This document shows, in pieces, positions 1-5,439 of a stretch of 5,684 bases of DNA. The position numbers and the translations under genes are program-made. Location: positions 1 to 5,684 of the forward strand of contig JACDAH010000291.1 of the NCBI GenBank assembly GCA_013695505.1, read 5' to 3'. The notes under the pieces are model-generated. The model ran no database searches. It was not told the origin of the DNA and saw only the letters and a list, made by a program, of their open reading frames with translations. Origin of the DNA: Chloroflexota bacterium. Its GTDB lineage: Bacteria; Chloroflexota; Limnocylindria; Limnocylindrales; CSP1-4. Positions within the stretch are counted from its first letter, which is position 1. The number at the start of each line of letters is the position of its first letter.

Positions 1-1394
1 TGGCAGACCCGCTCGAGCCGATCGACGCGGACGCGGCCGGAGCCGCGATGGCCGGAGCCGGGGCGACGGTTGGGGCAACGGGAGCCGGGGCGACGGTTGG
101 GGCACTCGAGGATTCCGGTCCGATCACGGAGCCCCTCCCCGGCCTGCCCTGGCCGGTGCCGGCGGCGCAGACGGAGCTTCGACCGATCGCCACCATCCTC
201 GCGAGCTCGGGTCCGACCGAACCCCACGTCGCGACCCAGACATCGGTGGGCGCGACCGAAGGTGGGACGTCGAGTCACGTCACCCAACCCTGGCTGACCG
301 GCGAGTCCTCCGACGCGCCACCGAGCGCCGGCTTCGCGGCTGATGCCGCCGACCACACAACCGAACCCGCACCACCCACCCTTGTCGACGACCCGACATG
401 GCCGAAGGTTCGCCCGGCGGAAACACGTCGGCGACGGATCCCGGCGACCATGCTCGCCGCCGCGGGCCTCGCGGTCGCGATCGTCGGCACCGCGCTGGCC
501 GTCGGGACCGGTGGTCTTGGCCTGCTCGGAAGGAGCACCCCGATCCCGGACATCGCGACAGCCGCGACCGCCGGGCCCACTGCCTCCTCGCTTCCCGCTG
601 TTGGCGTCCTTCCCTCGGCGATTCCTTCAAATCCGGGCGGCGCGGCTCCCAGCCTCAGTCCGCCACCATCCAGCCTCGAGCCGACGACGAAACCTCCGCC
701 CACGAAACCTCCGCCAACGAAACCTCCGCCGACCAGGACGCCGCCCGTCGCGGCGACGGACAACGTGGCCCCGACAGGGACGGTCAAGATCAACAACAAC
801 GCTGGATCGACGACGAGTCTCGCGTCGACTCTGTCCCTGGCGGCCCGTGACGCGGGAGGCGTCGCGAAGGTCCGGATCTCGAACTCCAGCGGCTCGTCAT
901 CCGGGCAGGTCTACACCTGGCCGTCCGGTGCGACGTCATGGAAGAAGAGTTGGACGCTCGGTGGCTCGAAGTCGTCGAGCGGAACGCGGGCGGTCTATGT
1001 CTGGTTCTACGACCGCACTGGCAATCGCTCGCTTCAATACCGCGACATCATCAGCTACAAGGTCCCCAACAAGGCTCCATACCTCAAGTTCCCCGTGGCG
1101 TGGATCGATGGATCAACCTACGACTGCCGAGCCAGTGCGGGCTGTTGGGCATTCGTGCTGGACAATGTTGTTGATCCTGACGGCGACGCACTTGATCTGT
1201 ATGGCGTGGGCATCCCGACGAACGGCGGCTCAGCCCTGATCGATACATACCCCTTCGCCGGTCCGCGCCAGGGCGAGCAGGCGATCCACTTCTATGGGTC
1301 CGGCGTATCGGGCAAACTGTCTTCGATGTCATTCAACGTGAGCGACGGCCACGGCCACCAGATCACCGGGAAGCTGGAGATCCGCAACCTCTGA
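1..1394 (+). CDS. Membrane-anchored surface/sensor protein, 5'-partial; probable C-terminal half of a receptor Ser/Thr kinase
   Basis: The reading frame is open from position 3 to the stop at 1392-1394. An in-frame ATG at 48, with GGAG 5 bases upstream, is the first possible start, but the upstream codons read as ordinary linker, so the gene probably begins outside the window. Numbering from that ATG (448 residues): residues 1-126 are an Ala/Gly/Thr/Pro-rich low-complexity region, RRRR at 127-130 is a positive-inside cluster, and 131-161 form one membrane helix. Residues 162-240 are a Pro/Ser/Thr stalk with TKPPP repeats. Residues 241-338 resemble bacterial Ig-like modules (APTGTVKIN at the start, a late YVWFYDRTGNRS). 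Residues 341-448 resemble a cadherin-like module (NKAP, VDPDGD, FNVSDGHG) with a possible C360-C366 disulfide. The predicted topology is N-in/C-out, as in PknB-type receptors. No kinase motif lies in the visible part, so the receptor-kinase identity is inferred from the kinase-rich neighbourhood. A stand-alone membrane-anchored adhesin remains possible. Confidence 0.75.
   Translation, partial: ADPLEPIDADAAGAAMAGAGATVGATGAGATVGALEDSGPITEPLPGLPWPVPAAQTELRPIATILASSGPTEPHVATQTSVGATEGGTSSHVTQPWLTGESSDAPPSAGFAADAADHTTEPAPPTLVDDPTWPKVRPAETRRRRIPATMLAAAGLAVAIVGTALAVGTGGLGLLGRSTPIPDIATAATAGPTASSLPAVGVLPSAIPSNPGGAAPSLSPPPSSLEPTTKPPPTKPPPTKPPPTRTPPVAATDNVAPTGTVKINNNAGSTTSLASTLSLAARDAGGVAKVRISNSSGSSSGQVYTWPSGATSWKKSWTLGGSKSSSGTRAVYVWFYDRTGNRSLQYRDIISYKVPNKAPYLKFPVAWIDGSTYDCRASAGCWAFVLDNVVDPDGDALDLYGVGIPTNGGSALIDTYPFAGPRQGEQAIHFYGSGVSGKLSSMSFNVSDGHGHQITGKLEIRNL
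54..107 (+). repeat. 27-bp tandem repeat, two copies, in frame
   Basis: Copies lie at 54-80 and 81-107 and are identical over their first 24 bases, differing only in the last codon (ACG versus CTC). The unit is codon-aligned and encodes GAGATVGAT then GAGATVGAL in the predicted cytoplasmic linker of the membrane protein. Such a repeat can change copy number by slippage or recombination without breaking the frame. Confidence 0.85.
687..746 (+). repeat. 15-bp tandem repeat encoding a TKPPP stalk
   Basis: Three near-identical units (687-701, 702-716, 717-731) each read ACGAAACCTCCGCC plus one variable base, followed by a degenerate fourth unit at 732-746. They encode TKPPP three times and then TRTPP, residues 214-233 of the membrane protein counted from the ATG at 48. 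The segment lies between the membrane helix and the Ig-like domain, so it likely forms an extended spacer that crosses the cell wall or holds the ectodomain away from the membrane. Confidence 0.85.
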
Positions 1395-2470: not shown

Positions 2471-2797
2471 ATGACCGCTGACCCCGGGGTGCGCGAACCG
2501 GGCTATCACGTTCGCATCCGCGAGCCCGATAGTGTCGAACGCGTGGCGGTCCCGTTCGTGACCCCATTCGTCATCGGACGCGAGCAGGGGTGCGACCTAC
2601 TGATCGCCGACCTGCAGGTCTCGCGGCGTCACGCCCAGCTCGAGATCCAGCCGGACGGCCGCGTCGTCCTCCGGGACCTCAATTCCGCCAACGGAACCTT
2701 CATTGGAGCGCAGCGGATCCGCGATGGGGAGTGGCTGCCGCTGCCCGGATCGTTCAGGATCGGGCGAACGACCATCACGGTCGAACGTCAGCCCTGA
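2471..2797 (+). CDS. Small stand-alone FHA-domain protein
   Basis: This 108-residue protein is almost entirely one forkhead-associated domain, a beta-sandwich that binds phosphothreonine peptides. The conserved positions are present: VIGRE with G36/R37, SRRHA with S51/R52/H54, and NSANGTF at 71-77 with N71, N74 and G75, which normally form the phosphopeptide-binding loops. The usual NSTNGT is NSANGT here. There is no signal peptide or membrane segment, so it should be a cytoplasmic adaptor. The start is uncertain: the ATG at 2471 has GAGG only 2 bases upstream, while an in-frame GTG at 2429 would add 14 residues and sits 9 bases after TAGTAT, which could fit a leaderless start. I chose the ATG because the extra residues add nothing to the domain. 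It is divergent from the kinase and 173 bp upstream of a second FHA gene, so a reader role for the adjacent kinase is a reasonable inference. GarA-like single-FHA regulators are a size analogy only. Confidence 0.88.
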   Translation: MTADPGVREPGYHVRIREPDSVERVAVPFVTPFVIGREQGCDLLIADLQVSRRHAQLEIQPDGRVVLRDLNSANGTFIGAQRIRDGEWLPLPGSFRIGRTTITVERQP

Positions 2798-2970: not shown

Positions 2971-4383
2971 GTGAAGTTGGTCTTTCAGAGTGGACCTCGA
3001 TCTGGTCAGGCCATCGATCTCACGATCGGCCAAGCCTTCACGATCGGCCGGGAAGCGGCCGATCTCGTCATCGATGACCCTCGCGTCTCGCGGCCGCATG
3101 CGCGCATCCTTGTCGGTCCACAGGGCGAGGCGACGATCGAGGATCTGAATTCCACGAACGGCACGGTCGTCAATGGACGACGGATCGTCGGGACCAGCCC
3201 ACTCCGCAACGGCGACACTTTGGGCATCGGCAACACCAAGTTCTCGGTCGGAGATCCGGCGGTTCGGAGCGGGCAGCCGACGGTCGTTGGCGGCGCCGAG
3301 GCCGCCGGCGGCATTCGTGCCCAACCCAACCGCTCCGGGCTGACCACTATTCGGCAAGGGGTAGCCTCCGCGAATCGTCGCGCGGGCATCGCGGTGGCGG
3401 TCGCCGCGATCGTCATCCTTGTCGCGGTGGTCGCAGGCGGCTACTACTTTCTGGTCGGCAAGCCTCTTTCGAACGAAGAGGTCATCGCTCGGATGAAGTC
3501 GTCGGTGGTCTTCATTCTTGCCCAGGGACCCAATTCCGGCACCGGGTCCGGTTGGGTGATCGACTCGGACAAGGGCCTCATCGTGACGAACAACCACGTG
3601 ATCCAACAGGGTCGCTCGTTCCGTGTCAGTGCGGACGGGATCACGCCGCGGTCGGCGACCGTGCTCGCAGCGTCGCCGTGTGACGACGTGGCCGTGCTCC
3701 ATGTCGACGACAAGGCAGGCCTCGCCGCGGTCAAGGTCGGGTCGCAGGCCAACCTGAAACAGGGTGATGACGTCCTTGCGCTCGGTTTTCCGGGAACGGC
3801 CAGCAGCGAGACGACACTGGTCGTGACCCCGGGGGCGGTCTCGGTTGTGAAGACGACGTACGAGAACGATCGTGACAACGACCTCGCGTCCTTCCCCAAC
3901 GTGATCCTCTCGACGGCAAAGATCAATCCGGGCAACTCCGGCGGCCCTCTCGTTGATCGCTCGGCGTCGGTCGTTGGGATGAACACGCGGACCAATTCAA
4001 GGCTGGATCAAAACTATTCGATCGGGATCGACCGAATCAAGGAGATCACGGGCCAGCTCTCGGCTGGGCGGGGCATCGGCTGGACGGGGATGGGCTTCGT
4101 TACACCGACTGCCGCCGACCTGACCGCCGTGGGATTCCCCGCGGACGCGACGGGGCTGCTGATCGTCAGTGCGGTTCCCGGCTCGGAGGCCGACATCCAG
4201 CGCTTCGGCCAGTACCCCTCGCTCCTCACCGCGATCGATGGCCGCCCGATCGCCGACAACGTTGATTACTGCACCGCGGCACGCACCAAGCAAAGTGGCG
4301 ACACGGGCGACTTCACACTGCTCGCGATCCCGCCTGGCGCCACCCGGGCCGTCGAAGGCACGTATACGATCCATTTCCGCTGA
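2971..4383 (+). CDS. FHA domain-transmembrane-HtrA-like serine protease (S1C) with PDZ-like C-terminus
   Basis: This 470-residue protein has four parts. Residues 1-95 are an FHA domain (TIGRE with G26/R27, VSRPHA with S40/R41/H43, LNSTNGT at 59-65), predicted to bind phosphothreonine in the cytoplasm. Residues 96-138 are a linker ending in RR (136-137). Residues 139-163 are a single membrane helix. Residues 166-365 are a trypsin-fold HtrA/DegP-type protease with H209 (VTNNHVI), D239 (DDVAVL) and S323 (NPGNSGGPL). All three catalytic residues are present, and the H-to-D spacing of 30 equals that of E. coli DegP (105/135/210). Residues 370-469 look like one PDZ domain (GLLIVSAVPGSEAD, then LLTAIDGRP). 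The expected topology is FHA inside, protease outside. Membrane-anchored HtrA proteins are common in Gram-positive-type bacteria, but the usual cytoplasmic part is unstructured; an FHA domain there is unusual. It converges with the phosphatase gene 30 bp away. FHA-controlled protease activity or localisation is inferred. Confidence 0.93.
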   Translation: MKLVFQSGPRSGQAIDLTIGQAFTIGREAADLVIDDPRVSRPHARILVGPQGEATIEDLNSTNGTVVNGRRIVGTSPLRNGDTLGIGNTKFSVGDPAVRSGQPTVVGGAEAAGGIRAQPNRSGLTTIRQGVASANRRAGIAVAVAAIVILVAVVAGGYYFLVGKPLSNEEVIARMKSSVVFILAQGPNSGTGSGWVIDSDKGLIVTNNHVIQQGRSFRVSADGITPRSATVLAASPCDDVAVLHVDDKAGLAAVKVGSQANLKQGDDVLALGFPGTASSETTLVVTPGAVSVVKTTYENDRDNDLASFPNVILSTAKINPGNSGGPLVDRSASVVGMNTRTNSRLDQNYSIGIDRIKEITGQLSAGRGIGWTGMGFVTPTAADLTAVGFPADATGLLIVSAVPGSEADIQRFGQYPSLLTAIDGRPIADNVDYCTAARTKQSGDTGDFTLLAIPPGATRAVEGTYTIHFR

Positions 4384-4413: not shown

Positions 4414-5439
4414 TCAGGGTTCCGCCGATCCGGCGGCACCGCCGACATCCCCGCCGGAGGCGCCCGGCACCTGGCCCGGCGAACCGCTCGTCGCGGGAAA
4501 AATGGACGAACCGGTCGGCGCGGCTGTCGGTGAAGCGGCTGGCTGTACCGAGGCACCAGGGGCGGCGGTTCGCGATGTCGAGAACCAGCCATTGCCGAGG
4601 GCGAGGCCTACGACGGCCGCCAGTAGGAATGCGGCCAGCAGCGCGACGGCGACCGAGGTCCGCTGCCCGCGTATCGGGCGATGAACCGATCGTTGATCGC
4701 GCACCCGTGGGGCGATCGACATCTGAGCGTCGACCACGATCACCGTGACGTTGTCGTGGCCGCCGGCGGCATTCGAACGCCGAACAAGCTCATCGGCCGC
4801 GACGCCCGGATCACCGTCACCACGCATGACGGCCTCGATATCCCGATCGTCGACCTGACCGGAGAGCCCGTCGGAGCACAGCAGGAATCGGTCGCCGGCC
4901 TGAACGTCGATCGTCGAGGCCGAAATTGCAATGCGATTCGCGGAGCCGAGCGCCTGAGTCAGGATGTGGCGCCGGTCGTCGGTCTCGGCTTCGCTGGCGT
5001 CGATGATGCCGCCCCGCACGAGCTCGGCCACGACGCTGTGGTCCTCGGTCAATCGCTCGAGCCGGCCCGCCCGGAGCCGGTAGGCGCGGGAGTCGCCGAC
5101 GTGGACAACCTCTGCCGCGACATCGAGCATCAAGATCGCAACACACGTCGTGCTCATACCTCGCAATGCCTCGCCGGCCGCCGCCGCGTCGCGAATGGCG
5201 CGGTTCGCTGACTCGATCGCAGCGATCAACTCGGTTGCGGTTGGCTCGGCCGGGAGCCGTTGCAGTGTGTCGACCAGGAGTTCGGCGGCGATTTCTCCCG
5301 CCGCCTGGCCGCCCAGGCCGTCGGCGACCATGAACAGCGGCGGTCGCGCCAGAAATCGATCCTCATTGTGATCACGAACGACGCCGACATCTGTGCGCGC
5401 CGCATGGCTCGCGGTCGACGGACTCCATTCGATCGTCAT
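4414..5439 (-). CDS. Membrane-anchored PP2C-family serine/threonine protein phosphatase
   Basis: This 341-residue protein removes phosphate from Ser/Thr using a metal-dependent PP2C (PPM) domain, about residues 10-240. Motifs in order are RTDVGVVRDHNED (15-27), VADGLGG (38-44), GMSTTCV (94-100), VGDSRAYRL (114-122), LTQALGS (160-166), LLCSDGLS (186-193) and GGHDNVTVIVVD (226-237). The metal-binding aspartates D40, D190 and D229 are intact. A basic stretch (R254, R257, R260) precedes one membrane helix at 262-283, followed by a 50-residue Ala/Pro/Ser/Gly/Thr-rich tail, so the catalytic domain is inside and the tail outside, as in PstP/PrpC-type phosphatases of PknB systems, where the tail is likewise poorly conserved. 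I chose the ATG at 5439 because the PP2C domain begins just after it; GATGAG 6 bases upstream is a weak ribosome site. The longer reading to 5607 would overlap the divergent kinase start. It probably reverses phosphorylation by the neighbouring kinases. Confidence 0.94.
   Translation of the reverse strand: MTIEWSPSTASHAARTDVGVVRDHNEDRFLARPPLFMVADGLGGQAAGEIAAELLVDTLQRLPAEPTATELIAAIESANRAIRDAAAAGEALRGMSTTCVAILMLDVAAEVVHVGDSRAYRLRAGRLERLTEDHSVVAELVRGGIIDASEAETDDRRHILTQALGSANRIAISASTIDVQAGDRFLLCSDGLSGQVDDRDIEAVMRGDGDPGVAADELVRRSNAAGGHDNVTVIVVDAQMSIAPRVRDQRSVHRPIRGQRTSVAVALLAAFLLAAVVGLALGNGWFSTSRTAAPGASVQPAASPTAAPTGSSIFPATSGSPGQVPGASGGDVGGAAGSAEP

Follow-up and report, generated by a model that had tools for sequence, protein, structure and literature searches.

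An HtrA-type membrane protease with a predicted cytoplasmic FHA domain, encoded among Ser/Thr kinase and phosphatase genes in a Chloroflexota bacterium

INTRODUCTION

The known targets of bacterial Ser/Thr kinases are, for the most part, proteins of the cytoplasm or ones that act at the membrane's cytoplasmic face. Among the membrane-anchored S1C proteases DegS, AlgW, PepD and HtrA we know of none with an FHA domain, and to our knowledge MarP, which has several membrane helices, also lacks one. For the animal FHA adaptor TIFA, a scheme has been proposed in which a phosphothreonine close to one copy's FHA domain is bound by the FHA domain of a second copy. TIFA is a soluble adaptor without a protease, and its likeness to the protein described here is an analogy, with homology limited to the FHA fold.

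In Mycobacterium tuberculosis, the kinase PknF positively modulates Rv1747, an FHA-containing ABC exporter of the same operon, and phosphorylation by PknF promotes condensation of the Rv1747 FHA module in vitro, an effect reversed by PstP, according to the available parts of two papers (PMC3908365, PMC9312465). The locus analyzed here is similar, as far as those parts go, in that an FHA domain sits on a membrane effector encoded near a Ser/Thr kinase. Yet Rv1747 is described there as an ABC exporter with two FHA domains, whereas the present effector is a predicted outward-facing protease with one, and in some relatives the kinase is in the same chain.

A preliminary description of this locus had not recognized the architecture as a described system. 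Our literature search, which left subscription papers mostly aside, led to a single related entry: a table entry and a sentence in the available part of a 2008 survey (PMC2605481) on NP_811686.1, an FHA-FHA-Tryp protein of Bacteroides thetaiotaomicron. Going by that description, its FHA domains also lie N-terminal to a trypsin domain, but there are two of them. The architecture is not described in the available parts of PMC8195603, PMC7159879 and PMC12088040. As to characterization, the original impression holds within the literature available to us. What we report is a recurrent combination of known modules for which, the kinase-to-surface-protease link included, no published characterization was found in that search. 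We favor, at a probability of roughly one half, the reading that this FHA-protease is a phosphorylation-controlled clustering switch for an outward-facing HtrA protease. A reader, and in one clade a kinase too, joined to such a protease would provide kinases with a direct enzymatic output on the other side of the membrane. The protein also offers a compact single-chain system for studying in vitro how FHA recognition alters a membrane effector.

RESULTS

Writer, reader and eraser genes around an FHA-protease

The window, by which we mean the whole 5684-bp stretch of DNA analyzed, spans a contig from end to end. The genome to which it belongs is fragmented: 549 contigs make up 2.5 Mb, with a completeness of 61%. 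Misbinning is not indicated: the tetranucleotide distance between window and genome (0.16) falls within the range of 14 readable contigs of the same genome (0.106–0.273) and is smaller than that of a same-genus stretch (0.211). The features of the window are collected in Table 1. The open reading frame of interest is real and lies where the preliminary description had placed it, and the kinase named there at 1453–2373 was confirmed. With kinase, FHA-only, PP2C and second kinase genes on its flanks, the FHA-protease is surrounded by writer, reader and eraser.

Table 1. Features of the window and of the FHA-protease that it encodes
Feature	Position	Strand	Evidence or remark
5'-cut gene	3..1394	+	Thr/Pro-rich part, one membrane helix (hydropathy), Ig-like ectodomain
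Soluble Ser/Thr protein kinase, 306 aa	1453..2373	-	PF00069 3.8e-44; no membrane helix (hydropathy)
FHA-only protein	2471..2797	+	PF00498 2.8e-16 on longer frame 2429-2797
FHA-TM-HtrA-PDZ membrane protease, 470 aa	2971..4383	+	GTG start at 2971, stop ends 4383
FHA domain, residues 1-95, with R27, S40, H43, N63	2971..3255	+	PF00498 E 2e-18, residues 24-87
Linker Thr104 (QPTVVGG), candidate FHA-read phosphosite	3280..3282	+	Motif count in relatives
Juxtamembrane and membrane helix, residues 127-162, hydrophobic core 138-156	3349..3456	+	AlphaFold2; hydropathy
HtrA-type protease domain, residues 166-369	3466..4077	+	PF13365 E 4e-25, residues 192-337
Catalytic His209	3595..3597	+	
Cys237, two residues N-terminal of catalytic Asp	3679..3681	+	Predicted disulfide with Cys434 (co-occurrence)
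Catalytic Asp239	3685..3687	+	
Catalytic Ser323, in GNSGG	3937..3939	+	
PDZ domain, residues 372-470	4084..4380	+	AlphaFold2 and Foldseek to HtrA and DegQ PDZ
Cys434, PDZ helix	4270..4272	+	Tyr-Cys invariant in 13/13 PDZ sequences
PP2C phosphatase (Stp1/PstP type)	4414..5439	-	PF13672 7e-14; one C-terminal membrane helix (hydropathy)
Second Ser/Thr kinase, start only (first 28 residues), cut by contig end	5601..5684	+	Reading frame

The gene cut at its 5' end is perhaps the end of a receptor kinase, an identity that we infer. Its match to Big_9 (22.1 bits) is below the 23.6 cut-off, and a single weak homologue was found. Before the membrane helix, its Thr/Pro-rich part contains TVGA twice and PPTLVDD once, resembling the juxtamembrane regions of kinases; T[VI] sites in this gene are not more frequent than in shuffled sequences (P 0.21). 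The PP2C phosphatase matches NF033484 at E 2e-64 (217 bits, below the 230 cut-off). Phosphatases like it are sparse among relatives, with matches in 5 of 41 genomes, its own included.

Three other contigs of the genome carry related genes. The N-terminus of the second kinase is near-identical to that of a kinase on contig C489, where a related cluster (L243:1-3840) combines this kinase, whose kinase domain is followed by PTVV and ATVV sites, an adjoining PP2C phosphatase 49% identical to that of the window, and two FHA domains. Contig C316 (L238:3338-4612) encodes an FHA–linker–membrane helix–ectodomain protein without a protease, with a TIVA motif after the FHA domain; by comparison with this protein, the FHA–membrane helix part may carry differing outside domains. 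On contig C159 (L233:439-3030), a long frame with an uncertain start codon encodes an FHA domain followed by sequence that looks oxidoreductase-like by eye.

Architecture and family assignment

A GGGAGG stretch lies directly 5' of the GTG start codon of the FHA-protease gene. Within the FHA motifs named in the preliminary description, G26, R27, S40, H43, N63, G64 and T65 are all present, as is the complete triad of H209, D239 and S323. The protein has the pocket residues of a phosphothreonine-type FHA domain (G-R, S, H and N), with R27, S40, H43 and N63 presumably forming the phosphate pocket. AlphaFold2, run on a single chain with a 98-row alignment, gave a mean pLDDT of 90.6. The one membrane helix that had been noted, at 139–163, was recovered, but with other limits: the model extends it over 127–162, and its hydrophobic core is 138–156. 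The C-terminal part, earlier called PDZ-like, has no match to the PDZ model of Pfam, which some relatives do score. Modeled alone, residues 366–470 (pLDDT 91.7, pTM 0.84) nonetheless adopt a PDZ fold that matches those of the HtrA family (7l71, TM-score 0.74 over 103 columns).

A trypsin-like domain with a His-Asp-Ser triad and, by structure, a C-terminal PDZ domain are the hallmarks of the HtrA/DegP (S1C) family. Scores against narrower models all fall short of their cut-offs: 113.7 bits for degP_htrA_DO (TIGR02037; cut-off 416.2), 55.8 for DegS (TIGR02038; 422.95), 65 for FhaB (NF049868; 125) and 79.8 for MarP (NF033740; curated cut-off 250), with which the protein shares being a bacterial membrane serine protease. 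By sequence, the protein is an S1C relative outside the TIGR02037 subfamily model. Against S1C structures, the model superimposes at 1.6–1.9 Å in the best cases for the protease domain alone, versus 8.6–13.1 Å over 249–285 residues for protease and PDZ together. As in Rv1747-type systems, the FHA domain belongs to a membrane effector that has a kinase next to it or fused to it.

Relatives and membrane topology

A protein search gave 3651 matches at E 1e-3 among 7994 scored candidates. Among the best 120 relatives listed, 111 (the window protein included) match both the FHA and the Trypsin_2 models, and five of these also match a kinase model. The closest relatives among the matches listed (P0002–P0010) are 46–53% identical to the window protein. 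Among all relatives listed, from this search and from the one centered on a kinase-fused protein described below, the eight with organism names are actinobacterial, six being Thermoleophilia. At the genome level, full-length copies number at least 15, in 13 of 199 genomes from the class of a Thermoleophilia-labeled genome. In the samples of the window's phylum and class, the full-length form was found in its own genome only (at least 1 of 301 and at least 1 of 177, respectively). These counts are lower bounds, the best few candidates having been scored per genome (five for the phylum, eight for the Thermoleophilia-labeled class, nine for the window's class). A search for the architecture and its taxonomy had been proposed earlier as a check; it finds the architecture in many relatives, the named ones actinobacterial, and so not rare. 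A pattern scan of genome contigs returned, in its best 80 matches, protease-part matches only, because its patterns were drawn from that part, and provides no count of the FHA-protease family. Ten pattern matches were considered as viral relatives, and tblastn confirmed none.

For comparative analysis, we collected relatives by similarity to the window protein or to P0091, a protein with a fused kinase (best 120 each, plus the loci). The resulting 419 non-redundant protease domains, of which 240 belong to FHA-proteases, give proportions that describe these samples and not nature. By companion domain, 165 have FHA without kinase, 75 kinase and FHA, none kinase without FHA, and 179 neither.

All 240 FHA-proteases have a membrane segment, with a mean of 4.4 Lys and Arg residues before it versus 0.65 after, and in 231 it is a positive-inside helix, with more such residues before than after. 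The helix of the window protein has a mean hydropathy of 2.86, with three such residues before and one after. Six FHA-less relatives sharing a cysteine pair with the family begin with lipobox-like signals, read by eye. The protease side is placed outside because a kinase needs cytoplasmic ATP and because of these lipobox-like N-termini. The FHA domain is accordingly predicted to be cytoplasmic and the protease-PDZ part to face outward.

Coupling to Ser/Thr kinases

In 75 of the 240 FHA-proteases a kinase is part of the same chain; one of the searches behind this collection was centered on such a protein, P0091. The four named members of this Pkinase-FHA-Trypsin_2 group are from Thermoleophilaceae. 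The kinase motifs HRDxKPxN and DFG are present in 75 and 73 of the fused proteins, respectively, and the four FHA core residues in all 75; the triad is complete in 69, with five cut short and P0144 having Ala for Asp. In an 80-row tree, three fused members form one clade (SH-aLRT 99) within the FHA-protease clade.

Gene neighborhoods were compared for 15 full-length copies; the copy of genome G509, cut by its contig end, was excluded. Within the flanks fetched (at most 9 kb per side), five copies have a kinase gene; the 20 HtrA loci without FHA that served as controls have none (Fisher p 0.009). These controls come from genomes of the same class, with one genome common to both sets. Three of the 15 have an abutting receptor kinase on the same strand (p 0.07 for this subset alone). 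Judged from the longest frames, two of these kinases lie downstream of the stop codon by ∼40 and ∼25 bases, and the third overlaps by 8 bases. The flanks of the other 10 copies, several of which end at contig ends, contain no kinase; gene proximity is therefore not the rule. An all-against-all comparison of open reading frames from the 15 loci found no family in more than four loci besides the FHA-protease gene itself. Genomes G464 and G349 (L184, L185, L195, L196) have two FHA-protease copies each, one without a nearby kinase and the other apparently sharing a two-gene operon with a receptor kinase.

Do these arrangements reflect signaling toward the protease or away from it? The preliminary description had proposed that phosphorylation inside the cell is coupled to the protease outside. 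Fused chains, abutting kinases, intact pockets and topology lend this good comparative support, while the 10 copies without a nearby kinase weigh against it. Kinase coupling as such is well supported by sequence comparison, and the protein probably puts a surface protease under the control of kinases inside the cell. In the opposite direction, the protease-PDZ ectodomain would sense misfolded or processed envelope proteins, with FHA and kinase as the output, the way receptor kinases work when their ectodomain is the sensor. The fused form does have a receptor-kinase layout, with kinase and protease on opposite sides of the membrane, and of the five kinases encoded close by, those of L190, L195, L196 and L197 each combine an ectodomain with a single membrane helix; the one of L194 is large, with no clear membrane helix. 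Exposed peptides are ligands for the PDZ domains of DegS and other HtrA proteins, which also counts for such sensing. But the triad is kept in all 165 unfused FHA-proteases, an indication that proteolysis and not just sensing is under selection, and the window protein is a separate chain with a reader, rather than a writer, as its sole cytoplasmic domain. We consider outside-in sensing unlikely, though it is the alternative that we take most seriously.

The phosphate pocket

The four FHA core residues are intact in 230 of the 240 FHA-proteases. Seven proteins (P0079, P0092, P0094, P0105, P0115, P0116 and P0117) lack the equivalents of R27, S40 and N63 yet keep the triad and the FHA fold. They form a natural phospho-blind comparison set. 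They would fit a reading of the whole family as HtrA stress proteases in which FHA is a dimer or adaptor module working independently of phosphorylation. The seven require only one change on the later tree (a quick 80-row tree leaves the place of the three that it includes open). Against this reading, the pocket is complete in the large majority of the family, the window protein and every fused one among them. Such phosphorylation-independent function is, in our estimation, quite improbable.

A threonine motif after the FHA domain

Within 25 residues after the FHA domain, and mostly 8–11 on, many relatives have the motif T[VIMRQTH][VILF][GASDVQRE]. It was present in 59 of 91 proteins of the discovery set versus 5.0 expected from shuffles, and in 54 of 75 fused proteins versus 9.3. 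In the held-out unfused set it was present in 46 of 64 versus 3.7 (maximum 9), a figure that is not fully blind, the motif having been widened after misses, some of them held-out, were viewed. A serine version was found in 11 of 91, 6 of 64 and 5 of 75 proteins of the discovery, held-out and fused sets, respectively. An earlier pattern, T[VI][VIL], was likewise frequent in unfused proteins (42 of 97 versus 3.4 shuffled; 34 of 68 versus 2.6) but not in fused ones (2 of 75 versus 6.8), where the variant is KTTVG or KTTIG. The fused clade adds little to the case, because its members are closely related and an alanine version of the wide motif is frequent there too (58 of 75 versus 10.7 shuffled).

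Other counts bear on how specific the motif is. It is missing in 50 of the 155 unfused proteins whose pocket is intact, and 35 gains or losses are needed on the tree. FHA domains without a protease are followed by it in 3 of 10 cases (shuffle mean 0.35), so it is not special to the FHA-protease family. Similar TV/TI sites occur in the juxtamembrane parts of kinases, above shuffles in three of four kinases tested. The motif is absent from all seven proteins without a pocket (Fisher p 5e-4), a value that is not independent evidence, since joint loss of pocket and motif is one event on the tree. From these sequence comparisons, the most plausible view is that the motif marks a site for kinases or FHA domains that is widespread in these bacteria, with T104 as the window's example. 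About nine residues from its own FHA domain, T104 is probably unable to reach that pocket, which favors binding between copies. Separately, an SxSAIxR-type stretch just before the membrane helix is present in 28 of 91, 33 of 64 and 10 of 75 proteins of the three sets, and in none of the seven without a pocket.

A clustering switch as the favored mechanism

The favored switch would work as follows. A nearby kinase would phosphorylate the linker threonine (T104), the kinase's own juxtamembrane threonines, or both. The FHA domain of another copy would bind the phosphothreonine, and the long continuous helix would gather or align protease subunits outside. The PP2C phosphatase would reset the switch. 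HtrA proteases are oligomers. Because of the analogy with PknF/Rv1747, clustering or alignment of protease subunits appears to be the most likely effect.

Alternatively, FHA might be a localization tether that parks an always-active HtrA by phosphorylated kinases or division proteins, leaving its activity unchanged. FHA domains often are docking modules, and the linker, with pLDDT <50 at 99–127 and a length of 20 to 171 residues across relatives, would suit a loose tether. The predicted helix at 127–162 is continuous from the juxtamembrane part into the membrane, which would suit transfer of alignment but is not decisive. A tether alone strikes us as rather unlikely.

A more detailed version of the clustering switch is tentative, and the odds are somewhat against it. 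Here, kinases, separate or in the same chain, would mark the threonine beside the FHA domain, copies would read one another head-to-tail, and the resulting array would activate a disulfide-stapled outer HtrA. If this version is true, the proteins form a kind of transmembrane phospho-switch for which we found no earlier description, proteolysis at the cell surface becomes a direct output of eukaryote-like kinase signaling, and the fused members are single-molecule kinase-to-protease receptors.

A cysteine pair and the origin of the protease

Cys237 and Cys434 occur together or not at all. Among the 419 protease domains, 398 are readable at both positions (a gap affects 21): 241 have both cysteines, 157 neither, and none one alone. 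Proteins with the pair are largely one clade, and the 241 are not independent events; still, no readable member shows a single loss. On this co-occurrence, we predict a disulfide that pins the PDZ domain to the catalytic-Asp loop. DegQ and similar proteases have no Cys at the position of C237 in the five alignments listed, three of which are variants of one DegQ.

The idea that the pair is part of the FHA system was set aside, as the six FHA-less, lipobox-bearing HtrAs have it too. In all, 13 FHA-less proteins have the pair, the other seven being fragment-like (short, or beginning in the linker). In the quick, midpoint-rooted 80-row tree, the six fall together with the FHA clade (SH-aLRT 99 for the combined 49 rows, 96 for the 43 FHA rows), which indicates that the cysteine pair is probably older than the FHA fusion. 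Given its greater age, it would belong to the structure or redox chemistry of the protease rather than to a phospho-switch. The data support an origin in which a lipobox-anchored HtrA stock acquired a membrane helix and, on the cytoplasmic side, a phosphothreonine reader, and fell under the control of kinases; in one lineage this control would have become so tight that the kinase joined the chain.

Another genome of the phylum sample (G195) encodes an FHA–membrane helix–protease protein without a PDZ domain and without the cysteine pair (L122:1417-2529). Its place among ordinary HtrAs, on a long branch, suggests a second, apparently independent FHA fusion.
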